Shown piece by piece: positions 1,662 through 56,564 of a stretch of 64,000 bases of DNA. Position 1 is the stretch's first letter, and every line of letters starts with the position of its first letter. Source of the stretch: Nevskia sp. (GTDB lineage: Bacteria > Pseudomonadota > Gammaproteobacteria > Nevskiales > Nevskiaceae); NCBI RefSeq assembly GCF_021732705.1, contig NZ_JAKFUM010000010.1, positions 310,001 through 374,000 of the forward strand, in the 5' to 3' direction. Below the pieces are notes generated by a model that saw only the letters and a program-made list of their open reading frames with translations, did not search any database and was not told the origin of the DNA. The position numbers and the translations under genes were made by a program.

Positions 1662-1720
1662 ACGGAAGTGCCTCGAATGGCACTTCCGTGCGCCATTCCA
1701 GCGGGCGGCAGCCCCGGGGA
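1662..1720 (-). repeat. 59-bp structured repeat, copy 1 (rsmG-parA gap)
   Basis: A perfect 11-bp inverted repeat (1662-1672 with 1679-1689, 6-base loop), a 7-base spacer, and a G+C-rich 24-base segment at 1697-1720. The same 59-base layout occurs at 56137-56195 inside murD. By hand count 49 of 59 bases match, and all 24 bases of the rich segment are identical. It lies between the rsmG stop (1752) and the parA start (1624), so it would be in the parA leader of an rsmG-parA transcript. Whether it acts in regulation is unknown. Confidence 0.8.
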
Positions 1721-1751
1721 GGCTTTTGGCGAATCATGCGACGACAAAAGC

Positions 1752-2417
1752 TTACGCGGCGCGCGCGCCGGGCGCGTAGCCGATGACCAGCAGCTGGCGC
1801 ATCTCGTCGAGCCCCGGCACCAGCAGCCGATGGGTCGACTGCACCAACCAGCGCGCCGGCAACCCGGCCCGCTCGGCATCGTCGACGTGCGCCTTCATCG
1901 CCAGCCAGCGCGTGTCGGCATCGCCCAGATGCTCGGTCACGGTGGTGAAATCGTGCAGGCTGGCGAACGCGCGGCTGATGATCAGCGGATACGGCGCGGC
2001 CGGCGCGTGATCCTCGGCGCGGCCTTCGAAGACCTCGGCATTCTTCAGCGCCAGCGCCCGGATCGCGTGTCGCATGAAACGCGCCTTCTTGCCGGCGGAG
2101 TCGAGCGTGGTCACCTGCAGGTCCGGCCGGACGATCGCGAGGATCAGGCCCGGAATGCCGGCGCCGCTGCCGACATCCAGCATCCGCGTGCCCGGCGGCA
2201 CCGATGGCAGCGCCTGCAGCACCGACAGCGAATCGAAGACATGGCGAGTGACCATCTCGTCGACGAACTTGATGCCGCTGAGGTTGTAGGTCGCGTTCCA
2301 CTTCTCGAGCTCGCCGAGATAGCGCATCAGCGGCTCGGTCAGGTCGAGATCGAGGCCGAAGCGTTCGAGACCGGCGCGCAGGCGCTTCTCGCTGTGCGGA
2401 TGGGCGTGGTCGCTCAT
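1752..2417 (-). CDS. rsmG: RsmG, 16S rRNA m7G527 methyltransferase
   Basis: Transfers a methyl group from S-adenosylmethionine to N7 of G527 in 16S rRNA. The product is 221 residues, the usual size. Seen: the N-terminal helical part with LGELEKWNATYNLSG, the SAM-binding loop MLDVGSGAGIPGLILA, and PLIISRAFASLHDF in the second half. The frame continues upstream without a stop, but the ATG at 2417 gives the normal N-terminus. parA follows after a 127-base gap holding the hairpin repeat. A possible minus-strand -10 (TATACT) lies about 75 bases upstream without a convincing -35 box. Confidence 0.95.
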   Translation of the reverse strand: MSDHAHPHSEKRLRAGLERFGLDLDLTEPLMRYLGELEKWNATYNLSGIKFVDEMVTRHVFDSLSVLQALPSVPPGTRMLDVGSGAGIPGLILAIVRPDLQVTTLDSAGKKARFMRHAIRALALKNAEVFEGRAEDHAPAAPYPLIISRAFASLHDFTTVTEHLGDADTRWLAMKAHVDDAERAGLPARWLVQSTHRLLVPGLDEMRQLLVIGYAPGARAA

Positions 2418-2535
2418 GCGAGGCGAAATCCTGCGGTGGGGCGGCAAAAAGCGGCTGAAATCATGGCGAACCGAGCGAATCGAGCCGCGAAGTATAGGCC
2501 GGGCCGTCGGCGGCGCTGGCAGCAGCGGCGACAAA

Positions 2536-2552
2536 CCCCGGCATACGCCGGG
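2536..2552 (-). terminator. Possible terminator after the CoA-binding gene
   Basis: A hairpin with a 6-bp G+C stem (2537-2542 with 2547-2552, loop ATAC) lies 27 bases beyond the stop of the CoA-binding gene. On the minus strand it is followed by GTTTGT. The stem and T-run are short, so termination may be partial. Confidence 0.35.
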
Positions 2553-2578
2553 CCGGGACGACGCCGATCCTGCCGGAC

Positions 2579-3052
2579 TCAGCCGGGCGCACTCGTCGAC
2601 ACCGCGGCCGGCGGCGTGCCGCGCAGCCGATGCTCGACCATCAGGCAGCGGTCCTGCACGACGGCGATGCCGGCCTGCGCCAGCGTGCTGGCGATGCCGT
2701 CGTGGCGGATGCCGGACTGCAGCCAGACCGCGCGCGGCTTCGCGGCGAGCAGGTCGTCGAGATGCGCCGGCAGCGCCGACGGCAGCCGGAACACGCAGAC
2801 GATGTCGATCGGCCCCGGGACGTCGGCCACCCGCCGGAACACCGGGCGGCCGAGGATTTCGGTCGCGTCCGGGTAGTAGACCGGCACCGGGACGACGTCG
2901 AAGCCGGCGCTCGCCAGATAGTCCGCCACGAAGTACGCCGGCTGATCGGACTGCGCGGCGGTCTTGATGCCGAGCACGGCGATGCGGCGCGTGCCGGCCA
3001 GCAGCGTCGACAGCGCCGCCGGTGTTTCCAACAGGTTCTGCTGCCAGGCCAT
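2579..3052 (-). CDS. CoA-binding domain protein (YccU-like)
   Basis: A 157-residue single-domain protein with a Rossmann-like CoA_binding_2 fold. Seen: RRIAVLGIKT near the N-terminus (first strand and nucleotide loop), VPVPVYYPDATEILGRPVF, IDIVCVFR, and the family signature AVWLQSGIRHDGI followed by a conserved Cys-Leu-Met-Val-Glu-His. The biochemical role of these proteins is not well defined; binding of CoA or an acyl-CoA is inferred from the fold. It stands between the response regulator and rsmG, 63 bases after the regulator stop, with no clear functional link to either. Confidence 0.85.
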   Translation of the reverse strand: MAWQQNLLETPAALSTLLAGTRRIAVLGIKTAAQSDQPAYFVADYLASAGFDVVPVPVYYPDATEILGRPVFRRVADVPGPIDIVCVFRLPSALPAHLDDLLAAKPRAVWLQSGIRHDGIASTLAQAGIAVVQDRCLMVEHRLRGTPPAAVSTSAPG

Positions 3053-3115
3053 GCGGGGCTCGCGCGGGGAATGCCAGTCGCGAGTGTAGGTCTGGTGGGC
3101 GCCCGGCGGCGTCCG

Positions 3116-3883
3116 TCACCGCCCGTAGTTCGGCCCGTCCGACGGCAGGTATTCGTAACCGCCGCCATGGCCGCGCACGGTGCGGATCACGGTGGGATCG
3201 CCGGGCACCGGTTCGATCTTCCGGCGCAGGCGGGTGATGCGCAGGTCGATCGCGCGATCGAACACTTCGCCGGGATCGGTCCCGGACAGTTCCAGCAGCT
3301 TGTCGCGCGACAGGATCACGTTCGGGTGGTCGGCGAACGCGCACAGCAGCCCGAATTCGGCGCCGGTCACCGGCAGCAGTTCGCCGGACGGATCGACCAG
3401 CCGCCGACGCGAGCGATCCAGCCGCCATCGCCCGAACCAGGCCTCGCTGCCTTTCCCCGTCGGTTCCGCCATGGTCATTGGGACCGGGCGCAGTGCCGGC
3501 ACCGCGCTGTGATCGACCGGCGGGCGGCGGCGCAGCACGCTGCGCACGCGCGCCAGCAGTTCCCGCAGGTCGGCAGGCTTGGCGACGTAATCGTCGGCGC
3601 CAAGCTCCAGGCCGACCACGCGATCGGCCGAGGCGTCATTGCTGGTCAGCATGATCACCGGCACATCGGAGCTTGCGCGCAGCCAGCGCAGCACGCTCAG
3701 GCCATCCTCGCCCGGCATCACCAGATCGAGGATGACGCAGTCCGGCACGGTCGAAGTCCACAGTGTTCGCAGCGCCGCCCCGCCCTCGCAGGCCTGCACC
3801 TGCAGGCCGTGGCCGGCCAGATAGTCGACCACGACCTCGCGCAGCAGCGGGTCATCGTCAACGACAGCGATCCTTGCGCTCAT
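3116..3883 (-). CDS. OmpR-family response regulator
   Basis: Two-component transcription regulator of 255 residues. The N-terminal receiver has the acidic pair (AVVDDDP), the phosphorylatable Asp in CVILDLVMPGEDG, the Thr in VIMLTSNDA and the Lys in VAKPAD. A winged-helix output domain follows from about residue 150 and ends in IRTVRGHGGGYEYLP, the conserved wing. The longer open frame to 3997 is rejected because MSARIAVVDDDP at 3883 is the standard start. It lies 123 bases downstream of the hybrid kinase on the same strand and is probably its phosphorelay target. General resemblance is to TorR/ArcA-type regulators; I cannot name the stimulus. Confidence 0.92.
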   Translation of the reverse strand: MSARIAVVDDDPLLREVVVDYLAGHGLQVQACEGGAALRTLWTSTVPDCVILDLVMPGEDGLSVLRWLRASSDVPVIMLTSNDASADRVVGLELGADDYVAKPADLRELLARVRSVLRRRPPVDHSAVPALRPVPMTMAEPTGKGSEAWFGRWRLDRSRRRLVDPSGELLPVTGAEFGLLCAFADHPNVILSRDKLLELSGTDPGEVFDRAIDLRITRLRRKIEPVPGDPTVIRTVRGHGGGYEYLPSDGPNYGR

Positions 3884-4006
3884 GGTCGCTCCGGCACGGC
3901 GTCGGAACCGGCAGTTTCGGTAAACGGGCGGGCCGCAACCCGTGTCATGAACAAAACGTTCATGTTCGAGACTACCGGCACACGCCGACGATGCCAATGA
4001 CGGCGT

Positions 4007-7000
4007 TCATGGCCGCTCCACCTGCGGCCGGATGAACGCGCGCGCGGCCACGTCGGCACCGGCCAGTGGCGCGAGATCCGCAAGCCGTCCCGCTGCCAGC
4101 GCCTGCTCGACGGACGCCGCCTGCGCCGACAGGTTCAGCGCGCCAAGCGTCGCCGCCACGCCTTTCAGGGTGTGCGCCGTTCGCCGGGCGACATCGACTT
4201 CGCCGGCATCGAGCGCCTGCGCGATCTCCTGCGCCGCCGGCGCACTGTCGAGGTAGCGGCGCGCCAGCTTCAGCCACAGCGCCCGCAGGCCGCCGAGGCG
4301 CTCGATCGCCGCCGGCACGTCGAACGCCGCGACCGGCGCTTCGGGCACCGCTTCCGGCGGGCTGAACGCGCTGCGGCCGGCGGCCGGACGGGTCCAGCGC
4401 TCCAGCGCTTCGTGCAGCAGGCGCACATCGACCGGCTTGCCGATGTGGTCGTTCATCCCGGCCGCCAGACAGCGACCGCGATCTTCGGCCATGGCGTTGG
4501 CGGTCATCGCGATGATCGGGATCGCGGCCAGATCGCCGCCGTGCGCGCGCAGCAGGCGCGTGGCCTCGAAGCCGTCCATCACCGGCATCTGCAGGTCCAT
4601 CAGGATCGCGTCGAACGGTTCCGACAGCGCGCGATCGACCGCGATCCGGCCGTTGTTGGCGATGGTGACCTCGATGCCGGCCGCTTCGAGCAGTTCGCGC
4701 GCGACCTGCTGGTTGATGTCGTTGTCTTCCGCCACCAGCACGCGCAGCCCGGCGAGCCGCGGATTGCGCAGTTCCTCGCCGCCCGCATCGTGCGCGCGCT
4801 GCAGGCGGCTGCTGCCGAAGGCCTGCAGGATGGTGTCGAACAGCACCGAGGCATTGACCGGCTTGACCAGGAAGCCGTCGAGCCCGGCATCCCGCGCTTC
4901 GCGCTCGATCTCCTCGCGCCCGAACGCGGTGACCATGATGATCAGCGGCGGCTGCGGCGGCCCGAGCGCGCGGATGCCGCGCGCGGCCTCGATGCCGTTC
5001 ATTCGCGGCATCTGCCAGTCCATCAGCACCAGATCGAACGGCTCGACGCGTGCCGATTGCACGCGGGCGATGGCATCGGCCCCGTCGCTGGCCACGGTCA
5101 CGCGGAATCCGAACGCTTCGAGATGTCCGCGCAGGATGTCGGCAGCGGTGGCGTTGTCGTCGGTCACCAGCACCCGCAGGTTGCGCAGGCGATCCGGCAC
5201 GCTGCGCGATTCCATGCGCGACAGCGCGCCGAGCCGCACATCGAAGCTGAAGCGACTGCCGCGGCCGGGTTCGCTGTCGACCCGGATCTCGCCATCCATC
5301 ATCTCGACCAGCCGCCGACAGATCGCGAGGCCCAGACCGGTGCCGCCGAAGCGGCGGGTGGTCGACGAATCGGCCTGCGAGAAAGCCTGGAACAGCCGCT
5401 GCTGCTCGACCTCGCTCATGCCGATGCCGGTATCGATCACGGTGAACTGCAGCCGGGCGAAATCCGGCCCCCGCTTCTTGACGCCGACGCGCACGACGAT
5501 CTGCCCGGCATCGGTGAACTTGATCGCGTTGCCGGTCAGGTTCATCAGGATCTGGCCGAGGCGCAGCGGATCACCGACCAGCGCGTACGGCACGTCCGGG
5601 GCAACGTCGAACAGCAGTTCCAGTCCCTTTTCCGCGGCACGCACGCTGAGCATGCCGGACAGGTTGTCGAGCACGGCGTGCAGGTCGAACGCGGTCGCTT
5701 CGAGCGTCAGCTTGCCGGCCTCGATCTTCGAGACATCGAGGACGTCGTTGAGAATCTGCAGCAGCGACTGCGCCGAGCCATGGATCTTGTGCAGGTAGTC
5801 GCGCGCCTGCGCCAGATCGCGGGTGCGCGCACCCAGCTGCGACAGGCCCATGATCGCGTTCATCGGCGTGCGGATCTCGTGGCTCATGTTGGCGAGGAAT
5901 TCGCTCTTGGCGCGACTGGCCGACTGCGCCGCGTTCGAGGCCTCGGTCAGCGCGGCTTCGGCACGCAGGCGTTCGCGCTGGTCGGTCATCGTCGCGAAGA
6001 TCATCGGCTCGCCGCCGAGGTCGATCCGGGTCAGCGCGATCTCGCACGGCCGCGGTTCGCCATCGCGGGTCTGGTGCCACCAGTCGAAGCGGTTGTAGCC
6101 GTCGCGGAACGCGGCCCGGATCATCGCCTCGGCCTTCGGCATCGATGGCTGGCCGTCCGGCTGCACCGGCGGCGAGAAGCTCGGGAACTCGCGCGCGAAC
6201 TCCTGCTCGTCGTCGATCTTCAGCAGCTCGCGCAGGCTGGGATTGGCGTTGGTGAAGTTCAGCTGCGTGTCGATCAGCACGAAGCCGACGCGAACGTTGT
6301 CGAAGATCGCGCGCAGCCAGCGCTCAGCGGTTTCGAGCCGCGCCTCGGCTTCCTTGCGATCGGTGATCTCGACCGTGAAGCCGGTCCAGATGATGCTGCC
6401 GTCCGCTTCCCGACGCGGCACGGCCGAGGTCCGTGTCCACGCGATGCGATTGCCGCGCACCGGCTGGCGAATCTCGATGGTGTACGGCTCCAAGGTTTCC
6501 GCCGAGCGTTGGCGCGTGGCGTAGACGCGCTCGCGGTCGGCCTCGAAGTACGCGCTTTGTTCGCGCTCGCGCGGATGTTCGCCGTGCGCGATGTCGGCCT
6601 CGTCGTACAGCTCGCGCACGCCGCGACTGAGGAACGGATACGTCACCACGCCGTCCGGCGCCAGCCGCCGCTGGAAGATCGCGCCGGGAATGTTGTCGGT
6701 GACCTCGCGCACGAAGCGTTCGGCCGCCAGCGCCTGATCGCGCGCCGCGGTCAGCGCCAGCTCCAGTTCCTTGGCGTGGGTCACGTCCTGCCAGACGCCG
6801 GTGAACACGGTACTGCCGTCCTTCTGCCGACGCGGCGTGCCGATGGTGCGCAACCAGCGCAGCTCGCCGGTCTTCAGGTGACGGATGCGGAAATCGCAGC
6901 GCATGACTTGGCCGCTCTCGATCGCCGCGACCGGCGCCGCCAGAAACGCCGGCAGGTCCTCCGGCACGATCGCACGGGCCATCTGGGCGTTGATCGCGTC

Positions 7001-8494
7001 GGAGGTGTCGGACGGCTCGATGCCGGCCAGTTCGCGGATGCCATCGCTGACGAACGTGGTTTCGAACTGGCCGTCGCCGTGCGCGCGGAAGCGATAGACC
7101 ATGCCCGGCACGGCCTTGACGATCTCGCTCAGGCGGCGCTCGGTCGCTTCGAGCTTCTGCCGGGTCTCGACTTCGGCGCTGACATCGAGCGTGAAGCCGC
7201 TCCACGCGACCGAGCCATCGGCCTGCGGCACCGGCTTGGCGAAGGTGCGCAGCCAGGCCTCGCGCCCGCCGGCCACCTTCGAGCGGTACGTCACTTCGAT
7301 GTCGCGGTTTTCCTTGGCGCCCAGAATGAAGCCGCCGATCAGCCGGGCGCGATCGGCGCCGGTGACGAGACTGATCAGCGCCATCGGATTGCCCAGCACC
7401 TGTTCGCGCGTGGCACCGAACAGCTTTTCGCCCTGATCGGAAATCATCGTGTAGCAGCCGACTTCGTTCGGCGCCATGCGGTACTGGTAGACCACGCCAG
7501 GCAGCGAATCGGTGATCTCGCGCAGGCGCGCCTGGGCCGCCTCGCCTTCCTTCAACGCGGTGACGTCGACCGCGATGCCGTCCCAGACCAGCGTGCCGCC
7601 GTCCTCGATCCGCGGCGCGGCGATGGTCCGGATCCAGCGCCGGCTGCCATCGCTGTGGCGGATGCGGGAGATGTTCTCGCGGCCGGTCATTTCCTCGGCC
7701 GAGCCGACCAGATCGCGGATCACGCCGGCCCGGTCCTCGTCGTCGACGATCGCCAGAAAGCGGGTGAAATCCTCGGTCAGTGCCTGTCGACTGATGCCGA
7801 GCAGTTCCTCGGTGGCCTTGGATACATAGTTGACGCCGATGCTGCCGTCGGCGCGGCGCGCCAGCTGGAAGACGATGCCGGGCACGGTGTCGGTGATCGC
7901 GCGCAGTTGGCGCTCGGCGCGTTCCGCGCCTTCCCGCAGTTCGCGCTCGGCCGTCAGCAGGCGCTCGCGCTTCTCGATTTCCTCGGTGACATCGTTCCAC
8001 CAGCCGTTCCAGACATAGCCCTCGGCGGTCTGGCGCGGTGTGGCCGAGGTTCGCATCCAGCGCGGCTGGTCGGTGCCGGCGCGAACGACGCGGACATCGA
8101 CCGAGAACGGTTTCAGATCGACGGCGGCGCGTTGGTAGGCTTCGAACAGGATCGCGGAGTCGGCTGCGATCACGAGGCTCGCCGGCAGCATCGGATCCTC
8201 CAGGATCGCCTCCGGCGTCACCCCGAGCACCTCGCGACAGCGGGCACTGACGTAACGGTAGCGAATCCGGTTGTGGCGATCGCTGACGATCTGGAACACC
8301 GCACCCGGCAGCGATTCCGCCAGATCGGCCATGTTGCGCTGGTGCTCGGCGGCATCGGCCGCTGCCGGCCGCAGCCGACCCAGATCCGCAGGTGCCCGAA
8401 GCGCGATGTCGGACGCGACGTCGACCGGCGGCGGGGCAGTCGCATCGGCCGGCGGCGCGGCCGGCGGGTCGGCCAGCGGATCTGACTGGGTCAT
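4007..8494 (-). CDS. Soluble multi-PAS hybrid sensor histidine kinase with two receivers and HPt
   Basis: A 1,495-residue phosphorelay kinase. In order: a Pro/Ala-rich N-terminus; five similar PAS units at roughly 55-175, 190-315, 320-440, 450-575 and 590-720; a sixth, different PAS at 730-845; HisKA with SEFLANMSHEIRTPMN (His near 871); a HATPase domain with GTGLGLAI; receiver 1 (VLVTDDN, LVLMDWQMP); receiver 2 (VLVAEDN, AILMDLQMP); and a C-terminal HPt with ARRTAHTLKGVAATLGA. I see no hydrophobic segment long enough for a membrane span, so it is likely cytoplasmic and senses an internal or diffusible cue. The adjacent response regulator is the expected end of the His-Asp-His-Asp relay. The complementary strand is also open for about 1,437 codons, a high-G+C artefact. 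Confidence 0.95.
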   Translation of the reverse strand: MTQSDPLADPPAAPPADATAPPPVDVASDIALRAPADLGRLRPAAADAAEHQRNMADLAESLPGAVFQIVSDRHNRIRYRYVSARCREVLGVTPEAILEDPMLPASLVIAADSAILFEAYQRAAVDLKPFSVDVRVVRAGTDQPRWMRTSATPRQTAEGYVWNGWWNDVTEEIEKRERLLTAERELREGAERAERQLRAITDTVPGIVFQLARRADGSIGVNYVSKATEELLGISRQALTEDFTRFLAIVDDEDRAGVIRDLVGSAEEMTGRENISRIRHSDGSRRWIRTIAAPRIEDGGTLVWDGIAVDVTALKEGEAAQARLREITDSLPGVVYQYRMAPNEVGCYTMISDQGEKLFGATREQVLGNPMALISLVTGADRARLIGGFILGAKENRDIEVTYRSKVAGGREAWLRTFAKPVPQADGSVAWSGFTLDVSAEVETRQKLEATERRLSEIVKAVPGMVYRFRAHGDGQFETTFVSDGIRELAGIEPSDTSDAINAQMARAIVPEDLPAFLAAPVAAIESGQVMRCDFRIRHLKTGELRWLRTIGTPRRQKDGSTVFTGVWQDVTHAKELELALTAARDQALAAERFVREVTDNIPGAIFQRRLAPDGVVTYPFLSRGVRELYDEADIAHGEHPREREQSAYFEADRERVYATRQRSAETLEPYTIEIRQPVRGNRIAWTRTSAVPRREADGSIIWTGFTVEITDRKEAEARLETAERWLRAIFDNVRVGFVLIDTQLNFTNANPSLRELLKIDDEQEFAREFPSFSPPVQPDGQPSMPKAEAMIRAAFRDGYNRFDWWHQTRDGEPRPCEIALTRIDLGGEPMIFATMTDQRERLRAEAALTEASNAAQSASRAKSEFLANMSHEIRTPMNAIMGLSQLGARTRDLAQARDYLHKIHGSAQSLLQILNDVLDVSKIEAGKLTLEATAFDLHAVLDNLSGMLSVRAAEKGLELLFDVAPDVPYALVGDPLRLGQILMNLTGNAIKFTDAGQIVVRVGVKKRGPDFARLQFTVIDTGIGMSEVEQQRLFQAFSQADSSTTRRFGGTGLGLAICRRLVEMMDGEIRVDSEPGRGSRFSFDVRLGALSRMESRSVPDRLRNLRVLVTDDNATAADILRGHLEAFGFRVTVASDGADAIARVQSARVEPFDLVLMDWQMPRMNGIEAARGIRALGPPQPPLIIMVTAFGREEIEREARDAGLDGFLVKPVNASVLFDTILQAFGSSRLQRAHDAGGEELRNPRLAGLRVLVAEDNDINQQVARELLEAAGIEVTIANNGRIAVDRALSEPFDAILMDLQMPVMDGFEATRLLRAHGGDLAAIPIIAMTANAMAEDRGRCLAAGMNDHIGKPVDVRLLHEALERWTRPAAGRSAFSPPEAVPEAPVAAFDVPAAIERLGGLRALWLKLARRYLDSAPAAQEIAQALDAGEVDVARRTAHTLKGVAATLGALNLSAQAASVEQALAAGRLADLAPLAGADVAARAFIRPQVERP

Positions 8495-8576
8495 GCGGGC
8501 GCTCCGGAACAGTTGGCAGGATCGTTCAGCAACGGCGGCACTGGCAATGGCCGGCAGCCAGCAGCCGCCGGTCGAG

Positions 8577-9422
8577 TCAATGGCCGGCGCGCGGCGGCGT
8601 GATCACCGGCACCCGCCGCGTGCGGTCGAACAGGCGCGCACCGAGGCGGCGGGCGGCCGCTTCGTCACAGACCGGTGTCGTCGCAAGCCTGGGGCACTGC
8701 CTGAAGATCGCGTCGCGCGTGGCCAGATCGGGCCAGCGCGTGCGGGCCATGCAGGCGGCGCCTCGCGGCGTCCAGCCCGCCTCGAAGGTGAACGCAGGAT
8801 CGTCGCGACTGCCCGGCGTCTGGATCGCGAGATCGTCGTAGATGTCGATCGCCGTGCCGTCCTTGGTATGCGGCTGGTTGTCGCCGCAGTAGTCGGCGCG
8901 AACCATGTGCACGCAGGCCGCATGGAGCGGCGCCAGATCCTCGCCGCGCGGACCCGCTGCCCACGGCCGGTAGCCGAAGCGCGCGCACTTGCCGACGGCG
9001 CCGGACGCGCAGGTGATCGTGATCGGCCCTTCACGACCGGGATGGCCGATCGGCAGCGCCACCGGGAAGCCCCAGGTTTCGCCGTCGATGTTCGGCGTGC
9101 AGGCCGGAACCGGGCGGCCGGCCGGTCCGCGCACAGTGAACTCGTGGCGCAGCAGGTCCGGCTGTTGCGGGTCCGGCGTGACCGAAGCGATCGTCACTTC
9201 AGCCGGCGGCTGGCCGTTCACTGGCAGGAACAAGGTGGCGCCGATCAGCTCGGCGCCGCGCAGCACGCTTCCATCGCCGACTTCGAGGACGAAGGCCGAG
9301 CCTTCGATTGTCAGCCGCCCGGCACTGTCACTGTCATCGGCGCCTGCCAGGGCGACCGATGACAGCGCCAGCAGCGTGGTGCCGAGGCAGACGGCCGTTG
9401 CCATCCGATCAACGAAGCGCAT
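8577..9422 (-). CDS. Exported ADYC-domain protein
   Basis: A 281-residue protein with a signal peptide (ATAVCLGTTLLALSSVALA, cleavage after residue 26 or so). The signature VRADYCGD (ADYC at residues 176-179) is that of the uncharacterised ADYC domain, and several conserved Cys residues suggest disulfides. A short segment near residue 55 (LRGAELIGATLFL) recalls the repeat style of the neighbouring protein. It starts 28 bases after the stop of the LNG-repeat gene, so the two form an operon. Function is unknown; location is inferred as periplasmic or extracellular. Confidence 0.8.
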   Translation of the reverse strand: MRFVDRMATAVCLGTTLLALSSVALAGADDSDSAGRLTIEGSAFVLEVGDGSVLRGAELIGATLFLPVNGQPPAEVTIASVTPDPQQPDLLRHEFTVRGPAGRPVPACTPNIDGETWGFPVALPIGHPGREGPITITCASGAVGKCARFGYRPWAAGPRGEDLAPLHAACVHMVRADYCGDNQPHTKDGTAIDIYDDLAIQTPGSRDDPAFTFEAGWTPRGAACMARTRWPDLATRDAIFRQCPRLATTPVCDEAAARRLGARLFDRTRRVPVITPPRAGH

Positions 9423-9450
9423 CGCGTCGAATCCGCGCTGGCGTCGACGA

Positions 9451-9825: not shown

Positions 9826-9905
9826 GGTGGCTCTCCAGTGCAGGGGTCGAAGCGGTTGCTTTCGATGAACCCAGACTAGAGCGCGCCGGTATCACGCCGA
9901 TGTTG

Positions 9906-9932
9906 CCGCGCTGACACATGATGTCAGCGCGG
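9906..9932. other. Perfect 11-bp hairpin upstream of the LNG-repeat gene
   Basis: Inverted repeat 9906-9916 with 9922-9932 and a 5-base loop. It lies 36 bases beyond the stop of the alpha/beta hydrolase and about 80 bases before the start of the LNG-repeat gene (both minus strand). There is no T-run after it, so it is either a terminator without a U-tract or an operator. Short direct repeats of the GGTATCA type flank it, which slightly favours a protein-binding site. Confidence 0.45.
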
Positions 9933-13427: not shown

Positions 13428-13434
13428 GCGTGCG

Positions 13435-48434: not shown

Positions 48435-49282
48435 CAGTGTGAAATCTCGGGATTGGCGTCGTTGTTCGGGCCATCGGCCACGCCCTGGCTCAAACCCCGA
48501 GCGGCCGACTTGCCGCTCGCGATCGACGGCGGAACGCCGTTCTTCCAGCCCACGGAAAATCCGTTCGGATAGCGCAGGTCGACATAGGCGACCTGGTCCA
48601 GCATCGGCAGCAGGGTGCTGCTCACGGCGCCGAGCACCAGCGCCACGCGCGAGCGCGGATCGTCCTGACCGAAGCGCAGCTCGATGCCGGCCCCGGTGCC
48701 GGCCGTGGCGGCCACCGTCATCCGCCACTCGCCGCGGGCATCGAGCGACAGACCGCCCGGCACGAATGCACTGCTGGCCAGCGCCATGCGCAGCGTCTCG
48801 AACACGGCGGCGGCTTCGGCTTCGTGGCCGGGCGGTGCCGACAGCAGCGGCAGGTCCTGCGGAATCTGGTCGAACGGCGGCGTGAACAGGCGGCTGTCGG
48901 TATCGATCATCCGCGCCTCGCCCCAGCGCGCGTACGGCACGCGCTCGGTCACGCGCACGTTCAGCGTGTCCGGCCACTGGCGGCTGACGCGGGCATGGCT
49001 GACCCAGGCCAGCGCCTCGATGCGTTCACGCATCGCGTCGAGATCGGCATCGAACAGATGCAGGCCGATGCCGGCATCGGTCGCGCGCACGATCTCCACC
49101 GCCTGCAGGCGATTCAGCTGGCCATCCACCGTCACCGCCGCCACCGGCTGATTGACCACCGGAGCGAGCACCGACTTCAGCACCAGCAGCGCCGCCACCA
49201 GCAGCGCCAGCGACAGCGCCGGAATCGCGAAGGGCGGCAAGCTCGGCGCATCGTCCCGCATGGTCAGGGCTCCGGTGTTCAT
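48434..49282 (-). CDS. ftsQ: Cell division protein FtsQ
   Basis: Bitopic septal protein linking early and late divisome proteins. 282 residues, one membrane span near 19-40 (IPALSLALLVAALLVLKSVL), then a POTRA domain (VAAVTVDGQLNRLQAVEIV) and a beta domain (ALAWVSHARVSRQWPDTLNV). It overlaps ddlB (ATGA) upstream and ftsA downstream. Confidence 0.95.
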   Translation of the reverse strand: MNTGALTMRDDAPSLPPFAIPALSLALLVAALLVLKSVLAPVVNQPVAAVTVDGQLNRLQAVEIVRATDAGIGLHLFDADLDAMRERIEALAWVSHARVSRQWPDTLNVRVTERVPYARWGEARMIDTDSRLFTPPFDQIPQDLPLLSAPPGHEAEAAAVFETLRMALASSAFVPGGLSLDARGEWRMTVAATAGTGAGIELRFGQDDPRSRVALVLGAVSSTLLPMLDQVAYVDLRYPNGFSVGWKNGVPPSIASGKSAARGLSQGVADGPNNDANPEISH

Positions 49283-50232
49283 GGCGTCGGGGTCCCGCCG
49301 GGGGCCAGCGTCGTCTCGAGGATGGCCCAGCACAGCGCGTCGTAATCCATCCCGACGGCGCGGGCGGCCATCGGCACCAGGCTGTGCGATGTCATGCCTG
49401 GCAGCGTGTTCACTTCGAGCAGCCACGGCTTGCCCTGCGCATCCATCATGAAGTCGACGCGGCCCCAGCCGCGGCCGCCGATGGCGTCGAAGGCTCTGGC
49501 GCAGATCGCCTGCAGCTCCGCCTCGTGCGTCGGTACCAGATCGGTCGGGCAGATGTAGCGGGTGTCGTTCGAGATGTACTTCGAGTGGTAGTCGTAGAAC
49601 TCGCCGGCCGGCTCGATCCGGATCACCGGCAGCGGCTGGCCATCGAGCATCGCGCAGGTGTACTCGCCGCCGGCCACGAAGGCTTCCGCCATCACCACAC
49701 GGCCGTTGTCGCCGAGCGCCAGCGCGAACGCGGCATCGATCTGATCGACGTTCTTGACCTTCGACACGCCGACGCTCGAACCATCGGCCGCCGGCTTGAT
49801 GATGAACGGGTAGCCGAAGACATCGGCGGCGCTGTGCGCGTCGGCCGCGCTCTCGAGAATCCGCCAGTCCGGCGTCGGCAGACGCTCGGCCTTCCAGATG
49901 CGCTTGGTGCGCAGCTTGTCCATCGCGAGTGCGGAGGCCAGCACGCCGGAACCCGGGTACGGGATGCCGTGCAGGTCGAGTACCGCCTGCACCGTCCCGT
50001 CCTCGCCGCCGGTGCCGTGCAGCACGCTGAACACACGGTCCAGCCCGCGCTTCGGCAGCGTCAGGATCGCGTCGCGATCGGCATCGATGCCAACGGCGTC
50101 GATGCCGAGCCGCTGCAGTGCCGCCAGCACGCCTTCGCCCGACCACAGCGAAACCTGCCGTTCGGCCGACCAGCCGCCGAGCAGCACGCCCACTTTTCCG
50201 AACGCCTTTGGATCGGACACGCGCTTACGCAT
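49279..50232 (-). CDS. ddlB: D-alanine-D-alanine ligase
   Basis: Makes the D-Ala-D-Ala dipeptide for UDP-MurNAc-pentapeptide. 317 residues, an ATP-grasp enzyme. Seen: VGVLLGGWSAERQVSL, VFSVLHGTGGEDGTVQ, PFIIKPAADGSSVGVSKV in sense though not every residue is spelled here, and LLEVNTLPGMTSHSL. Overlaps murB by eight bases. Confidence 0.97.
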   Translation of the reverse strand: MRKRVSDPKAFGKVGVLLGGWSAERQVSLWSGEGVLAALQRLGIDAVGIDADRDAILTLPKRGLDRVFSVLHGTGGEDGTVQAVLDLHGIPYPGSGVLASALAMDKLRTKRIWKAERLPTPDWRILESAADAHSAADVFGYPFIIKPAADGSSVGVSKVKNVDQIDAAFALALGDNGRVVMAEAFVAGGEYTCAMLDGQPLPVIRIEPAGEFYDYHSKYISNDTRYICPTDLVPTHEAELQAICARAFDAIGGRGWGRVDFMMDAQGKPWLLEVNTLPGMTSHSLVPMAARAVGMDYDALCWAILETTLAPGGTPTP

Positions 50233-51130
50233 CGGCCTTCTCCCCGACCATCTTTACTTCAGGATGCAAATCGACTCCGGACTTCTGCTTCACGACGTTG
50301 CGGACGTGCTCGATCAGGGTTTCGACGTCGGCGGCAGTGGCGCCGTCCTCGGTCAGGATGAAGTTCGCGTGCTGCTGCGAGACATGCGCGCCGCCGATGC
50401 GGTGGTTCTTCAGCCCGCAGGACTCGATCAGACGCGCGGCGTGATCGCCGGGCGGATTGCGGAACGTGCTGCCTGCGCTCGGCTTGCCGACCGGCTGCGT
50501 GGCCTTGCGCTGCGCCAGCGACGTCCGCGTGGCGGCGGCGTGGCGGCCATCGACATCCGCGCTGACCTTGAAGCGCGCCGCGAGATAGCCGAGGACATCC
50601 GCCGGCGGCACGACGGTGCGATAGCTCGTCGCGAATGCCGATGGCTTCAGCCAAACCGTCGAACCGTCGCGCAGCAGCACTTCGACTTCGGCGACCGTCG
50701 GCCAGGTCTCGCCGCCCCAGGCACCGGCATTCATCGCCAACGCGCCGCCGACCGTGCCCGGAATGCCGGCCATGTAGCCGAGACCGGCGAGTTGCTGACG
50801 CTCGGCGAACTTGGCCAGCCGTGCGCAGTGCAGTCCGGCTTCGGCGTACAGCGTGTCGGGGCTTTCGCTCCGCAGCGCATCGAGCGCGCCGTGCAGCGCG
50901 ATCACCGTGCCGCGGAAGCCGCCATCGCGCACCAGCAGGTTCGAACCGAGGCCGAGCCACAACACTGGCTCGTCGGCCGGCAACCGACGCACGAAGGCGA
51001 TCAGATCGTCGCGGTCGGCCGGCTCGAAGTAGCGATCGGCAGGTCCGCCGACTCTCCAGCTGGTGTGGCGGGACAGCGGTTCGTCAACACGGACGACGCC
51101 GCGAACGGCGATCAGGGCAGGCTCGCGCAT
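50225..51130 (-). CDS. murB: UDP-N-acetylenolpyruvoylglucosamine reductase
   Basis: FAD-dependent reductase that forms UDP-MurNAc. 301 residues from ATG 51130; a GTG three bases earlier is possible. FAD-binding segments LGLGSNLLVRDGGFRG and GYMAGIPGTVGGALAMNAG, catalytic Ser in AGSTFRNPPGDHAARLIE, and a C-terminal HANFI. Short form without the E. coli-type extra C-terminal part being obvious. One-base overlap with murC. Confidence 0.96.
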   Translation of the reverse strand: MREPALIAVRGVVRVDEPLSRHTSWRVGGPADRYFEPADRDDLIAFVRRLPADEPVLWLGLGSNLLVRDGGFRGTVIALHGALDALRSESPDTLYAEAGLHCARLAKFAERQQLAGLGYMAGIPGTVGGALAMNAGAWGGETWPTVAEVEVLLRDGSTVWLKPSAFATSYRTVVPPADVLGYLAARFKVSADVDGRHAAATRTSLAQRKATQPVGKPSAGSTFRNPPGDHAARLIESCGLKNHRIGGAHVSQQHANFILTEDGATAADVETLIEHVRNVVKQKSGVDLHPEVKMVGEKADA

Positions 51131-52599
51131 CACGCGACACCTCCCTGCTGTTCCGCCTCACGGCGCACGCCCGACGCCTCGCGGGCAGCCGTCAGCAGAC
51201 CGGCCAGGCTGCCAATGTCGCCGGCACCGACCGTCAGCAGCACATCGCCATCGCGCACGATCGACGCCAGCGCTTCGGGTGCGTCGGCCACGGTCTTGAC
51301 GAACACCGGCTCGACCTTGCCGCGGGCGCGGATGCCGCGGGCCAGCGCGCGGCCGTCGGCATCGACCATTGGCGCTTCGCCGGCGGCGTAGACCTCGGTC
51401 AGCACCAGCGCATCGGTCTCACTCAGCACGGCGCAGAAGTCGTCGAACAGGTCGCGCGTGCGGCTGTAGCGGTGCGGCTGGAACGCAACGACCAGACGGC
51501 GGCCCGGATAGGCGCCGCGGATCGCGTCGAAGGTCACTTTCAGCTCGCGCGGATGATGGCCGTAGTCGTCGACGATGCGCACCGTGGCCTCGCCGACTCG
51601 CCAGTCGCCATGCGATTCGCAGCGACGACCCACGCCCTGGAATTCCGAAAAGGCCTTGCGCATCGCATCGAAGCCGACACCGAGCTCGCGCGCCACGGCA
51701 ATCGCGGCGAGCGCGTTCAGCACGTTGTGCCGGCCCGGCAGGTTCAAGTGCATCGGCTCGACCGCGCCATCGGCAGTCAACACGTCGAAACGCGCGCCGT
51801 CGGACTCGAAGCGGATATTGGCCGCACGCAGGTCGGCCGGCTCGTCGATGCCGTAGGTCAGCACCGGGCGGCCGATGTCCTCGATGATGCCGCGCACTTC
51901 GGCATCGTCCGCGCACAGCACGGCGAGGCCGTAGAACGGCAGGCGCTGCAGGAACTCGATGAAGGTGGCGCGCAGGCGGCGGAAATCGCCGCCGTAGGTT
52001 TCGAGATGGTCGGCGTCGATGTTGGTGACGATCGCGACCATCGGCGTCAGATGCAGGAAGCTGGCGTCGCTCTCGTCGGCCTCGGCCACGAGGAACGAGC
52101 CGCCCCCGAGACGGGCGTTGGTGCCGGCGCTCTTGAGCTTGCCGCCGATGACATAGGTCGGATCCAGACCGCCTTCGCCGAGCACGCTGGCCACGAGGCT
52201 GGTGGTCGTGGTCTTGCCGTGGGTGCCGGCCACGGCGACGCCATAGCGGAAGCGCATCAGCTCCGCGAGCATCTCGGCGCGGCGCACGATCGGAATGCGT
52301 GCCGCCTTGGCGGCCGCCAGTTCCGGGTTCTCGGCCTTGATCGCGGTCGAGACGACCACGACATCGACACCGGCAATGCGCTCGGCATCATGGCCATACG
52401 CGATCGAGGCCCCGAGCGAGATCAGGCGCCGCGTCGCCGCACTCTCCTTCAGGTCGGAACCGGACACGCCGTAGCCGAGGTTCAGCAGCACCTCGGCAAT
52501 GCCGGCCATGCCGGAACCGCCGATGCCGAGCAGATGGATGCGCTTCACGCGCCGCATCGGCTGCTGGGACAACGGCAACTGCGCTGCCAGGGTGCTCAT
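51130..52599 (-). CDS. murC: UDP-N-acetylmuramate-L-alanine ligase
   Basis: Adds L-Ala to UDP-MurNAc. 489 residues. N-terminal Rossmann loop [21 protein letters not shown] loop [32 protein letters not shown] and [12 protein letters not shown], all ligase hallmarks. I set the start at ATG 52599, which overlaps the murG stop by four bases. Confidence 0.97.
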
Positions 52600-53654
52600 G
52601 CTGCGGCCTCCAGGCACAGGTCGGCGATGCGTTCGTCGGCGGCAGTCCAGGCCGCCGTGCGGGCGGCCGTGGCCATCATCGACAGCTGGCTGCGATTGGC
52701 GAACAGCTCGATCAGCGTGTCGGCGAGGCGACGCGGCGTCAGGTCACGCTCGGCAATCAGCAGCGCCGCGCCAGCCTTGACCAGATACTCGCCATTGCGG
52801 GTCTGGTGGTCGTCGACCGCGTGCGGGAACGGCACCAGCAGCGAGGCGCAGCCGGCTGCGGCCAGCTCGGCAACGGTGGAAGCGCCGGAGCGGCAGACGA
52901 CGAGGTCGGCCCAGTCATAGGCGGCCGGCATGTCGTCGATGAAGGCAGTCACCTCGCCATCGATACCGGCACGGGCATAGGCCGTCTGTGCGATGTCCAG
53001 CGTCCGACCGGCCTGATGGCGAACCTGCGGCCGGACCTCAGCCGGGACCAGCGCCAATGCTGCCGGCACGATCTCGTTCAACGCACGGGCCCCCTGACTG
53101 CCGCCGAGCACCAGCACTCGCGGCACGCTGCCGTGTGCCGCCAGTCGCTGCGCCGGCGCGGCGAGCTCGGCAAATCCGGCGCGAACCGGATTGCCGACCG
53201 TCGTCGCGCGGCGAAAGGTCTTCGGGAATGCTTCCAGCACGCGCGACGCGATCGTCGCCAGCAGGCGATTGGTCAGCCCCGCGGCCGCATTCTGTTCGTG
53301 GATCACCAGCGGACGGCCGGACAGCCGCGCCGCGAGCCCGCCCGGACCGGCCGCGAAGCCGCCCATGCCGAGCACGAGGTTCGGCTGTTCACGGCCGAGG
53401 ACGGCGAAGGCATCGAGCATCGCGCGCGCCAGCACCAGCGGCGCAGTGAGCAGCTTCATCACGCCCTTCCCGCGCAGGCCCTTGACCCGCACGAGCTCGA
53501 TCGCGATGCCGTGCTGCGGCACCACGCGCGATTCGAAGCTGTCCGGCGTCCCCATCCAGACCACGGTATGGCCGCGCCGCATCAGCACCTTGGCAACGGC
53601 AAGCGCGGGATACACGTGGCCGCCGGTGCCGCCGGCCGCGATCATGATTTTCAT
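52596..53654 (-). CDS. murG: Lipid II synthase MurG
   Basis: Glycosyltransferase that adds GlcNAc to lipid I at the inner membrane. 352 residues. Seen: [77 protein letters not shown]. Its ATG overlaps the stop of the short frame at 53651-53809 (ATGA). The first 23 bases recur at 53787-53809. Confidence 0.97.
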
Positions 53655-53809
53655 CGGCTGGCCTCGCACTCGATGGCACGGCCATCCATGGCCTCGCGGC
53701 GCGCGACCGACAGGCACCGGCCCGACCGTCCCTGGTCGTGCGCGCCTGACGACTGCGAGCAGTGCTCGCACAGCGTCATCAGACGCCCAGCCGCGATCAT
53801 GATCTTCAT
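53632..53809 (-). repeat. Near-identical 23-bp direct repeats flanking the ftsW-murG insert
   Basis: 53632-53654 (murG start) and 53787-53809 match at 21 of 23 bases. They are separated so that the repeat unit is 155 bases. Bases just upstream of each copy are also partly alike. Compatible with a tandem duplication or with an insertion that duplicated its target. Confidence 0.75.
53651..53809 (-). CDS. Short reading frame between ftsW and murG, unknown
   Basis: 52 codons. The ATG overlaps the ftsW stop and the TGA overlaps the murG ATG, so the operon's coupling is kept. It starts [11 protein letters not shown], a near-copy of the MurG N-terminus (MKIMIAAGG), then diverges to a Cys-containing tail ending [10 protein letters not shown]. 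No domain is recognised. Internally the DNA has inverted repeats (GCGAGCA/TGCTCGC and GATGGC/GCCATC). It may be translated only to pass ribosomes on to murG, or be a decayed insertion. Confidence 0.4.
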   Translation of the reverse strand: MKIMIAAGRLMTLCEHCSQSSGAHDQGRSGRCLSVARREAMDGRAIECEASR

Positions 53810-55107
53810 GAGCGGGCCCCGCGGCGGCGGAAGAACGCGAACAGCCCGGTGCCGTCCTGCTCGCGGCGCGAGCCACCACCGGCCGGCGTGCGCCGCAAGG
53901 GCGTCGGCTCGATTTTGGTCGTGCGCCGCGCGGACGGATGACCGGCCTGCAGGAAGCGATTCTCGTAGTCGACGCGCAGGATCAACGCGACCATCACGCA
54001 GACCGTGATCAAGCTCGAGCCGCCGTAGCTGATGAAGGGCAGGGCCAGACCCTTGGTCGGTACCGCGCCCATGTTCACCGCCATGTTGATCAGCGACTGC
54101 AGGCCGAACCAGCTCGACAGGCCGTAGCAGACATAGGCGTTGAAGCGGCAATTCAGCTGTTCCGCAGCCTGACCGATGACGAAGCCGCGCCAGACCAGCA
54201 ACCCGAACAGGCCGATCAGGATCAGCACGCCGAACAGGCCGAACTCCTCGGCGAGGATCGCGAAGATGAAGTCGGTGTGCATTTCCGGCAGGTACAGCAG
54301 CTTCTGCAGGCTGTTGCCGAGGCCGACGCCGAACCATTCGCCACGGCCAACGGCGATCAGCGCCTGACCGAGCTGGTCGATGTTGCCGTCCGAATCGCGG
54401 CCCGGCGTGTCGAAGAAGCGCATCAGACGGTTGACGCGGTACGGCGCCCAGATCGCGATCACGCCGAGGGCGGCGATCAGGCTGCCGCCGATGATCGCCA
54501 GATCGCGCAGCCGGGCACCGGCCATGAACAGCATCAGCATCGAGATCGCGAGCAGGATCGCGGTGGCGCCGAAGTCCGGCTCCTTCAGCAGGAAACCGCT
54601 GACGAAGGCCAGCGGGATGAATGGCGCGAGCAGGCCCATGGTCTTCGTCTGCAGCGCCAGCTGGCGGCGCACGATATAGCCGGCGAGGTACAGCACCACG
54701 GCCAGCCGCGCCGGCTCCGAGGCCTGCATCTGGAACAGGCCGAAGTCGATCCAGCGCCGTGCCTTGTTGCGATCCAGCCCGACACCCGGAATCAGCACCA
54801 GCACCAGCAGGAACAGCGCGAGCATCAGCAGCAGCGGGCCGGCCGATTCCCACGATCGCATCGGCACCGTGAACGCCAGCGCGCCACAGCCGAGCCCCAG
54901 CACGACGAACGCCAGCTGGCGCTTGACGAAGTAGGCGGTCGACACGCCGGTGATCTTCTCGCTGATCGCGACCGATGCCGAGGCGACCATCACAAGACCC
55001 CAGGCAAGCAGGATCGCGACGACCAGGCACAGGATCGGATCGAGGCCGTAGCGCGTCGGCGACAGGCCGAAGCTCAGGCTCTGCTGGCGGCCAATCTGCG
55101 CGCTCAC
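53806..55107 (-). CDS. ftsW: Septal peptidoglycan polymerase FtsW
   Basis: SEDS-family glycosyltransferase that polymerises lipid II with FtsI at the septum. 433 residues, about ten membrane spans. Seen: the catalytic loop region GLDRNKARRWIDFGLFQMQASEPARL (in part), KEPDFGATAILL, and FISYGGSSLI near the end. The first codon is GTG at 55107, overlapping the murD stop (GTGA). The C-terminal tail is Arg-rich. Confidence 0.96.
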   Translation of the reverse strand: MSAQIGRQQSLSFGLSPTRYGLDPILCLVVAILLAWGLVMVASASVAISEKITGVSTAYFVKRQLAFVVLGLGCGALAFTVPMRSWESAGPLLLMLALFLLVLVLIPGVGLDRNKARRWIDFGLFQMQASEPARLAVVLYLAGYIVRRQLALQTKTMGLLAPFIPLAFVSGFLLKEPDFGATAILLAISMLMLFMAGARLRDLAIIGGSLIAALGVIAIWAPYRVNRLMRFFDTPGRDSDGNIDQLGQALIAVGRGEWFGVGLGNSLQKLLYLPEMHTDFIFAILAEEFGLFGVLILIGLFGLLVWRGFVIGQAAEQLNCRFNAYVCYGLSSWFGLQSLINMAVNMGAVPTKGLALPFISYGGSSLITVCVMVALILRVDYENRFLQAGHPSARRTTKIEPTPLRRTPAGGGSRREQDGTGLFAFFRRRGARS

Positions 55108-56564
55108 GCCGCGATCCCCTTCACCAGTTCGCGGAAGTGCGCGCCGCGGGCCTCGTAGTTCTTGTACTGGTCAAGGCTGGCACAGGCCGGCGACAGCAGC
55201 ACGCGGTCGCCGTGCTGCGCGGCCGCGCGCGCTTCGGCCACGGCCGCCGCGAGGTCCGGCACGCGCTTGATCGCGACCGACTTGCCGAGATCGCGCTCGA
55301 TCGCCGCCGCGTCCTGCCCGAACACGATGGCGAGGCGCGCCTTGGCGGCCAGCGGTGCCCGCAGCGCCGTGAAATCCTGACCCTTGCCCTGCCCGCCACC
55401 GATCCAGACCAGCGGTCCCTGCAGGCCGTGCAGCGCGGCCATCGTGGCGCCGACATTGGTGCCCTTGGAATCGTTGATCCACGACACGCCGTCGAGATCG
55501 GCCACCCATTCGCAGCGATGGGCGAGCCCCGGGAAGCTGAACAGCGCCTTGAAGATGCCGGCTTCATTGAGACCCGCGGCCTCGGCCAGCGCGAACGCGG
55601 CCAGCGCATTCGCGGCGTTGTGCAGGCCTTCGATCTTCAGGCTCGCGATCGGGAACAGCGGCGTCTCGCCTCGCGCGGCCCAGGTCTGTTCGTCATGCTC
55701 GATCAGGCCGAAGTGCCCCTTGGCCGGTGCATCGAGACCGAAGCTGACGACCCGCCGCGCGGTATGCGCGCCGGTATGCGTCGAGCGGTCATCGCGGTTG
55801 ACCACGGCGACCTGCGCGTGTGCGTAGATGCGCGCCTTCGCCGCCGTGTAGCGCTCCAGCGAGCCATGGCGATCGAGATGATCCGGCGAGATGTTCAGCA
55901 CCGTCGCCGCCACCAGATTCAACGATTCGGTGGTTTCGAGCTGGAAGCTCGACAGCTCCAGCACGTAGAGCTGGACCGCCGGATCGATCAGGTCCAGCGC
56001 CGGCGTGCCAAGGTTGCCGCCGACACCGGCGACGACACCGGCTTCGCGCGCCATCGCGCCGACCAGCTCGGTGACCGTGCTCTTGCCGTTGGAACCGGTG
56101 ATGCCGATCACGGTTGGGCTGGTCGCGCGTGTGCCTTCGAAACTGCCTTGAAGGGCACTTTCGAGCGCGGATCCAGCGGGCGGCAGCCCCGGGGAAGCGG
56201 GCGGCAGCGCTGAGTCAGCGGGAGGCGTCGCGAGATGACGGGCAAACAGCTCGATATCGCCGAGCAGTTCCAGTTGCGCCGCGCGCAGCGTCTCGATGAA
56301 CGGATCATCGAGCGGCACGCCGGGCGAGACCACCGCGAACGCGAACTGCGACAGCGGTGCCGGTGCGGCAAAGGCGCCGACGTGAATGCCGTCGACACCC
56401 GCCAGCGCCCGCAGTTCGTCGAGGCCAGCAGGGGCTGCGCGCGAGTCGGTCAGCACCATCCGCGCGCCTTCGCGCGACAGGTAGCGCGCGGTCGATGCGC
56501 CGCTCTTGCCGAGGCCGACGACGAGCACGGAACGTCCGCGATAACGCTTCACGGCGCTTTCCAT
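55104..56564 (-). CDS. murD: UDP-MurNAc-L-Ala-D-Glu ligase MurD with in-frame insert
   Basis: Adds D-Glu to UDP-MurNAc-L-Ala. 486 residues, against roughly 440-460 usual. N-terminal VLVVGLGKSGASTARYL, ATP loop GITGSNGKSTVTELVG (Lys161), NISPDHLDRHGS, WINDSKGTNVGATMAAL. Between the first domain and the ATP loop, about residues 112-149 form a Pro/Ala/Ser-rich insert (PPASPGLPPAG in its middle) that normal MurD lacks; it is encoded by the repeat at 56137-56195 plus flanks. The start at MESAVKRYRGR overlaps the short frame upstream (TGATG). All catalytic motifs remain, so it is probably active. Confidence 0.95.
   Translation of the reverse strand: MESAVKRYRGRSVLVVGLGKSGASTARYLSREGARMVLTDSRAAPAGLDELRALAGVDGIHVGAFAAPAPLSQFAFAVVSPGVPLDDPFIETLRAAQLELLGDIELFARHLATPPADSALPPASPGLPPAGSALESALQGSFEGTRATSPTVIGITGSNGKSTVTELVGAMAREAGVVAGVGGNLGTPALDLIDPAVQLYVLELSSFQLETTESLNLVAATVLNISPDHLDRHGSLERYTAAKARIYAHAQVAVVNRDDRSTHTGAHTARRVVSFGLDAPAKGHFGLIEHDEQTWAARGETPLFPIASLKIEGLHNAANALAAFALAEAAGLNEAGIFKALFSFPGLAHRCEWVADLDGVSWINDSKGTNVGATMAALHGLQGPLVWIGGGQGKGQDFTALRAPLAAKARLAIVFGQDAAAIERDLGKSVAIKRVPDLAAAVAEARAAAQHGDRVLLSPACASLDQYKNYEARGAHFRELVKGIAA
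56137..56195 (-). repeat. 59-bp structured repeat, copy 2 (inside murD)
   Basis: Inverted repeat 56137-56147 with 56154-56164 (one mismatch, 6-base loop), 7-base spacer, and the 24-base segment 56172-56195 identical to 1697-1720. Compared with copy 1, stem pairs 1-28 and 4-25 changed on both sides and stay paired. A shortened second copy of the rich segment appears to begin at 56196. Confidence 0.8.

Follow-up and report, generated by a model that had tools for sequence, protein, structure and literature searches.

A family of DNA repeats in Nevskiaceae that resembles repetitive extragenic palindromes and has variable but paired stem arms

We analysed a 64,000-nucleotide stretch of Nevskia sp. 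(assembly GCF_021732705.1, contig NZ_JAKFUM010000010.1, positions 310,001 to 374,000), hereafter the window, which carries two copies of a palindromic DNA repeat. Copy 1 lies between rsmG (gidB) and a parA-like gene, and copy 2 lies inside murD. The match between them described in an earlier note was reproduced: window positions 1662-1720 and 56137-56195 align without gaps, with 49 of 59 bases identical and one identical run of 24 bases, while the next best 59-mer in the window on either strand has 32 of 59 bases matching. The features at the two places are given below. R1 denotes a covariance model built from nine copies in the window's own genome, both window copies included, and the best-35 Nevskia rows are the top of the alignment fitted to that model, which we used for conservation and mismatch counts.

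836..1624, minus strand: parA-like gene, downstream of copy 1 (Pfam AAA_31)
1641..1726, minus strand: copy 1, full model match, between rsmG and parA (R1 96.6 bits, E 1.1e-16; this copy was among R1's nine)
1643..1655, minus strand: copy 1 outer stem, 3' arm (sequence; pairing counts; comparison with the G002 orthologue)
1656..1661, minus strand: 6-nt bulge of copy 1, confined to the 3' side, minus-strand sequence AAACTC (sequence)
1662..1672, minus strand: copy 1 inner stem, 3' arm (sequence; folding and pairing counts)
1673..1678, minus strand: copy 1 hexaloop, ATTCGA on the minus strand (sequence)
1679..1689, minus strand: copy 1 inner stem, 5' arm, 11 bp (sequence; folding and pairing counts)
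1690..1702, minus strand: copy 1 outer stem, 5' arm (sequence; pairing counts)
1703..1719, minus strand: GC-rich mini-hairpin segment of copy 1, minus-strand sequence GGGGCTGCCGCCC (sequence; near-invariant in the best-35 Nevskia rows)
1752..2417, minus strand: rsmG (gidB), upstream of copy 1 (Pfam GidB)
55104..56570, minus strand: murD, host of copy 2 (Pfam MurD-like_N, Mur_ligase_M, Mur_ligase_C)
56112..56237, minus strand: 42 murD codons where seven relatives have six, a net in-frame insert of 36 codons that contains copy 2
56116..56201, minus strand: copy 2, full model match, inside murD (R1 82.7 bits, E 1.0e-13; this copy was among R1's nine)

The earlier note had given each copy an 11-bp stem and a 7-base spacer, with stem pairs 1-28 and 4-25 differing on both sides between the copies. 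The two-sided differences were confirmed from the sequence. The 11-bp stem of the murD copy contains one C.C mismatch. The spacer bases are present, but together with the bases that follow they form one arm of a 13-bp outer stem. The proposed size of 59 bp proved too small: the unit is ~75 nt, and its outer stem encloses the inner stem across a one-sided 6-nt bulge. Copy 1 folds better than shuffled sequences (z -4.5 and -3.9 on the two strands). The murD copy alone folds no better than shuffles (z -1.0 and -1.4), and the case for structure therefore rests on comparison and not on the two copies alone. A further GCGGGCGGCAGC adjoins the murD copy at window positions 56197-56208, possibly the remnant of a tandem copy.

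The two copies belong to a dispersed family with genic and intergenic members. With copy 1 as the query, blastn gave nine matches with E below 1e-5 in its own genome, the murD copy among them at E = 6.4e-12. Besides the two window copies, these are one copy between the DoxX and pirin genes, four tandem copies at intervals of ~75 nt next to a LuxR-type gene and a tandem pair between ABC-transporter ATPase and permease genes (the LuxR-type and ABC-transporter genes named from Pfam). The covariance-model search that the earlier note had set as a check recovered these nine at 75-105 bits, followed by a next match at 38 bits, and found more copies in relatives. Across 61 genomes, the own genome included, R1 at E<=0.1 had a match in 22, and in none of the 24 that came from other families of the order. 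The exact tip of the hairpin, TGCCATTCAAGGCA, was searched for in 58 Nevskiaceae genomes and in 27 genomes from five other families of the order. It occurred 117 times in 33 of the 58, with one to eight occurrences per tip-bearing genome, and in none of the 27; a reversed control occurred once in all. The exact element pattern was found in 11 stretches across 84,980 species genomes, all of them Nevskia. By blastn, R1 and exact tip alike, the dispersed folded family proposed from the two copies is thus borne out. Rfam gave no match at the gathering score in the window and eight loci, and among the titles listed for literature matching GCCATTCAAGGC none concerned bacterial repeats. A single paper was found that mentions Nevskia together with repetitive extragenic palindromes, and its title is that of a review on Xanthomonas diagnostics. 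As a side observation, the own genome also has a ~155-nt tandem repeat at C4:287900-288600 (L279) with a tip hairpin in each unit, the upstream hairpin of these units being of the GCCTGACCGC..GCGGTCAGGC type.

The architecture of the unit recurs across copies. A GC-rich mini-hairpin is followed by a long hairpin that consists of an 11-bp inner stem with a hexaloop near ATTCAA and a 13-bp outer stem around it, with the 6-base bulge confined to the 3' side. The nine own-genome copies have in common a GGGGCTGCCGCCC-like sequence, both stems, an ATTCAA-like loop and the bulge. In their alignment 84% of stem cells were paired, compared with 68% in shuffles and 30-39% in slid registers, and 13 of 24 pairs had changed on both sides. 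Among the 51 R1 matches, in an alignment gathered from the loci and fitted to the structure, 91% of cells were paired (68% in shuffles) and both-side changes affected 21 of 24 pairs. A GCCATYCRAGGC-like tip is conserved in the long hairpin, and in Nevskia this hairpin follows GGGCTGCCGCCC. The exact tip is present in 15 of the best-35 Nevskia rows and GCCATYCRAGGC fits 27, the tip being looser there.

In other genera, many weak R1 matches have an upstream hairpin with a GCCATCCATGGC-type tip and then the long hairpin with tip TGCCATTCAAGGCA. The exact tip was present in 35 of 41 wider-family R1 rows, which had not been selected for it, and by their sequence most of the weak matches outside the genus appear to be true relatives. 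For stem analyses of the wider family we used 80 distinct copies chosen by the exact tip, which is therefore constant by construction. A GCCRTYCNNGGC motif lies upstream in 38 of these 80 copies, and a CRTCCNTGGCG-like motif lies further upstream in 49. Some copies differ in their surroundings. Those of G013, G015 and G016 (L074, L075, L078, L079, L081-L084, L086, L091) are flanked on either side by GC-rich hairpins, of the CTTCCCCCGC..GCGGGGGAAG or CCCTCCCCCGC type, and by eye form a composite repeat. Copies in G019 (L100-L107) have a shorter loop, and about five of the eight are followed by CCGATTC-like heptamers (by eye).

Comparison of orthologous sites revealed filled and empty states. 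In the window's genome, the murD insert adds 36 residues in frame between GDIELFAR and VIGITG, just before the Mur ligase middle domain and between the first two Pfam domains. It is absent from all 16 genus-mates with sequence compared and, by match coordinates, from G001, so that one of 18 genus genomes is filled. The segment is missing in genus-mates and is not the ordinary diverged protein sequence that the earlier note had named as the alternative. Between rsmG and parA the element is present in G000, G002 and G009, the site is empty in G005 and G010, and six other genus-mates examined have no element there. Of six genomes compared at the pirin site, G000 alone carries the element. G000 also has it at the LuxR site, where no element was seen by eye in G002, G003, G008, G009, G010 or G011 and where the hairpin of G005 is terminator-like and similar in its core. 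Separately, murD of G010 and G015 (L176, L177) has a different in-frame insert of ~30 residues elsewhere in the gene, common to both; the protein alignment behind this second insert was in the wrong reading frame for many genomes and was used for that insert only.

Copies within genes were found in murD (own genome), a purL-type gene (G015), a molybdopterin oxidoreductase gene (G016), fecR (G019), aceF-type acyltransferase genes (G066, G076) and ribD (G076, G023, G002). A phhA-type gene of the own genome (C7:189200-190000, L278) contains an in-frame row of repeats with the tip or a near tip on the opposite strand. In gene-orientation copies the tip region translates as A-(I or L)-Q-G, except in fecR, which differs. 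The linker of RibD (L347, L349, L342-L346) spans 9-25 residues in 15 genomes without the element. It contains the element in five genomes, in two of them decayed, and other palindromic repeats in G061 and G035. The RibD linker is an in-frame insertion hotspot for several repeat families, a single protein linker invaded by several unrelated palindromes.

Copies often lie at gene ends. Gene calls for these counts came from a home-made codon-usage script, a non-standard caller, and the counts include orthologous sites, so that copies are not independent. Among the 45 strong copies (45 of the 51 R1 matches, the last six being weak or reverse), four lie inside genes and 26 have a stop codon as the nearest gene end on the 3' side, in 14 cases within 11 nt. 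Among 45 copies of the wider family, five lie inside called genes, and the 3' side is a stop in 23, a start in 14 and without a call in three. In 15 of these 23, the stop codon falls 11-18 nt after the tip and is mostly the TCA of a CTCAC-like tail. Where the gene ends in TAG or TAA, as in two stop-docked copies, the tail reads CTAC or CTTAC. Over all 80 exact-tip copies the tail was CTCACC in 36, CTCAC in 6, CTAC (GTAG on the other strand) in 4 and another sequence or none in 34.

This docking at stop codons favours the main rival to the explanation that we propose below, and a strong one: the element may be a functional hairpin under purifying selection on its structure, for instance a 3'-end mRNA hairpin that controls stability or translation as repetitive extragenic palindromes (REPs) of E. 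coli do. According to passages of PMC12306157, ribosomes stall at E. coli REPs that lie no more than 15 nt from a stop codon. The conserved tip and bulge also fit this possibility. Conversely, the sites are filled in some genomes and not in others, two ribD copies are decayed, and copies inside genes show the same pattern as those outside. We consider selection on structure possible but somewhat doubtful, and the stems bear on it as well.

The stem arms are variable yet paired. In the 80 exact-tip copies, 98% of the pairs that adjoin the tip are Watson-Crick, with all four types represented (GC 28, TA 19, AT 18, CG 13), and the 7-nt 5' arms take 57 different sequences. Mismatches in this set are equally rare in both forms (G.T 13, A.C 14). 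For change at fixed positions we hand-picked 20 pairs of shared sites, one per site, from flank BLAST among 131 copies, excluding pairs explained by composite repeats within or between genomes. Both flanks are in common at 12 sites and one flank at eight. Of 140 inner pairs at the 20 sites, 22 had changed on both sides, 19 of them Watson-Crick in both species, and eight had changed on one side; slid registers gave 4-8 both-side changes, none Watson-Crick. The 12 both-flank sites contributed 13 both-side changes (11 Watson-Crick) and five one-sided ones, and the eight one-flank sites nine (8 Watson-Crick) and three. Compensation was seen at seven of these one-flank sites. At an aceF-type site, five of the eight pairs next to the tip have been swapped between two genera and all remain paired. 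At rsmG-parA, G000 and G002 have the same inner stem, three compensated outer-stem pairs and three outer-stem pairs that are paired in one species only. Several other shared sites showed no change or one-sided change only.

Compensating changes usually count as the proof that an RNA fold is under selection. The earlier note had read those between the window copies as a fold kept by selection or recently copied from a folded family. Compensation held up, both between copies and at shared sites, where it is among the points for selection on structure, but it does not alone prove selection, because template switching can also produce it. Passages of Monttinen and Loytynoja 2022 (PMC8794818) explain compensating multi-base changes in RNA genes by such switching, in which one arm is copied from the other. 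A strand bias among mismatches, another point for selection on structure, is present in the best-35 Nevskia rows and absent in the wider family (13 versus 14), where wobbles are few; an RNA function deduced from wobble bias is kept as a candidate. Also against the rival, both window copies have their host gene(s) on the strand where mismatches appear as A.C and not as G.U.

We favour, at slightly less than even confidence, a REP-like, non-coding and non-autonomous palindromic DNA repeat of Nevskiaceae whose arms are maintained mainly by template switching at the DNA level. What we observed directly is a family of dispersed copies whose sites can be filled or empty, an architecture that recurs, paired variable arms, a frequent position at stop codons and in-frame copies in housekeeping genes. 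Correction of the arms at the DNA level is proposed because of the strand symmetry of the wider family, the near-perfect arms, the multi-pair swap at a fixed site and the decay of copies elsewhere. Copies would arise rarely, by means of a factor that binds the tip together with motifs beside it, and would survive mainly where they were inserted at gene ends or in permissive linkers. During replication the hairpin may provoke switches of template by which one arm is copied onto the other, and a mutation in one arm would thereby either spread to both or be erased. Resident copies would then be passive, either as REP-like hairpins at the 3' ends of mRNAs or as additional loops in proteins.

Several observations weigh against this explanation. 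The bulge is kept in all best-35 Nevskia rows, where arm-wide template switching should erase it. In the same rows A.C mismatches outnumber G.T (18 versus 5 events in 13 stem clusters, p 0.01), and this strand bias suggests selection on one folded strand, as the rival has it. Upkeep is not universal, the decayed ribD copies of G025 and G069 having kept five and three of eight pairs. The contrast between fixed and free parts of the unit rests on inspection: averaged over columns, which indels blur, the 80 copies carry 0.51 bits of information upstream against 0.45 and 0.40 in the inner arms, no clear excess upstream. Inner-stem compensation was found at only four of the 12 both-flank sites, and five of the 11 pairs there come from the one aceF-type site; as it is concentrated in few such sites, we hold the template-switch explanation less firmly and give its main rival more weight. 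Eight of the 20 hand-picked pairs have one flank in common, and some of these could be independent insertions at a favoured site. Our searches found no enzyme or mobile parent for the element.

A further proposal, which we regard as rather unlikely, is that the stem arms are rewritten in place, templated by the other arm and, at coding sites, by adjoining host codons. The element could then rebuild a perfect hairpin around any host sequence that it encounters. In RibD the 5' outer arm is complementary to CTCCGGCAG, the last two codons of which (RQ) are found in 13 of 14 RibD genes without an intact element. The full nine-base CTCCGGCAG match is present in one of these 14 (G036, which may keep a remnant), and host-codon templating is held less firmly for that reason. 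If in-place rewriting is true, whole-stem replacement could be followed in nature at fixed sites and would perhaps be a route by which the repeat fits itself to new targets. A related candidate, capture of the arms from the target at insertion, had looked attractive for stop-codon copies. As a general rule it was rejected: three copies at separate sites of G016 (L070, L076, L077) do not differ in their arms, and many wider-family inner arms lie, by eye, inside a commoner outer stem. Arm capture is kept only as an idea for coding sites.

How copies move can be asked of known mobilisers. A classical REP would be mobilised by a REP-associated tyrosine transposase (RAYT, a Y1 HUH transposase), and a split within the genus pointed that way: the nine genomes with copies over 60 bits all have a Y1_Tnp match (E 2.3e-11 to 1.3e-13), and the other nine have a weaker match or none. 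Over the family, Y1_Tnp at E<=1e-8 was present in 20 of 33 tip-bearing and seven of 25 tip-less genomes (p 0.018, uncorrected for phylogeny). The genus split was then weakened by counter-examples across the family and by Y1_Tnp loci without the repeat. G066 and G069, with eight and seven tips and both at least 98% complete, had no Y1_Tnp at E<=0.001, and neither had the tip-bearing G004 and G061. None of 47 Y1_Tnp loci (best matches only; 11 from other families) had a tip-like hairpin, so that a REPtron, a RAYT flanked by the repeat, was not seen among them. R1 found nothing credible on the first 30 Y1_Tnp loci (best E 0.99), and the GTAG tag is absent as a rule. RAYT is not established as the mover, and we consider this explanation improbable. 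Two observations stand beside it: G019 has no Y1_Tnp match, and the Y1_Tnp gene of the own genome is adjoined by three 155-nt tandem repeats (L123:1909-2373), between genes that we take to be gltB- and dgt-like.

The dispersed, short, non-coding copies with filled and empty sites could also suggest a miniature inverted-repeat transposable element (MITE) of a DDE transposon with terminal inverted repeats. Yet two G016 copies (L070, L076), identical over an 86-nt match, have by eye no terminal inverted repeats and no clean target duplication, which makes a MITE highly improbable. Heptamer or CTCAC direct repeats in the flanks of G016 and G019 copies were also considered as target duplications and dropped, no clean duplication being definable.

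The element resembles REPs in several respects. Passages of PMC3733652 describe REPs as short palindromes, mostly intergenic at gene 3' ends and some inside open reading frames (ORFs), whose termini often supply the stop codon, GTAG REPs included. The Nevskiaceae element is also palindromic, lies at gene 3' ends and in some ORFs, and supplies stop codons. It has the general REP traits set out in passages of PMC12306157 (a palindrome with a common motif, dispersed and mainly extragenic at gene ends), at a low copy number and with a unit longer than 14-40 nt. The main text of PMC12306157 does not name Nevskia. In contrast to GTAG and CGTC REPs of 20-40 nt, the element is ~75 nt or more, with two or three hairpins, and combines a conserved loop with a variable stem, a one-sided bulge and no clear link to RAYT. 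Both tags are lacking as a rule: the tail that would mark GTAG-tagged REPs, CTAC, occurs in four of 80 copies, and CGTC or GACG in two of 80 tails, motifs having been tried in order with an earlier motif ending the test.

Two further systems share the compensation or the coding palindromes. Unlike the template-switch hairpins of RNA genes, the Nevskiaceae case is a dispersed repeat with copies in protein genes too. Here a repeat dispersed in the DNA shows the same compensation signature with all four Watson-Crick pairs, also at sites that different genera have in common and within protein genes, and in the wider family neither strand is preferred. As compensation in a dispersed, strand-symmetric repeat, it offers a natural test case for selection on structure versus template-switch repair. 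Nematomorpha mitochondria have perfect inverted repeats of up to 284 bp in protein-coding genes (PMC6649704); these are mitochondrial, unlike the Nevskiaceae repeat, and the likeness lies in inverted repeats inside protein genes.

Inside genes the closest description is that of Rickettsia palindromic elements (RPEs), which passages of PMC2229807 give as palindromic, 105-146 bp long, and both intergenic and in frame in conserved protein genes. The Nevskiaceae element likewise forms in-frame palindromes in conserved protein genes (murD, ribD, aceF-type, purL-type and others). The comparison with Rickettsia made in the earlier note is apt, although REPs within genes outside Rickettsia had already been published (passages of PMC3733652). 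The host group is another one, the Nevskia unit is ~75 nt, and the likeness drawn here is one of description. The Nevskiaceae element also shows frequent stop-codon docking and stem turnover at shared sites. Membership in the tagged REP superfamilies is not supported; the element behaves as REPs do and, within genes, as RPEs do. Nevskiaceae can be added to the bacterial families whose housekeeping proteins carry in-frame palindrome inserts.

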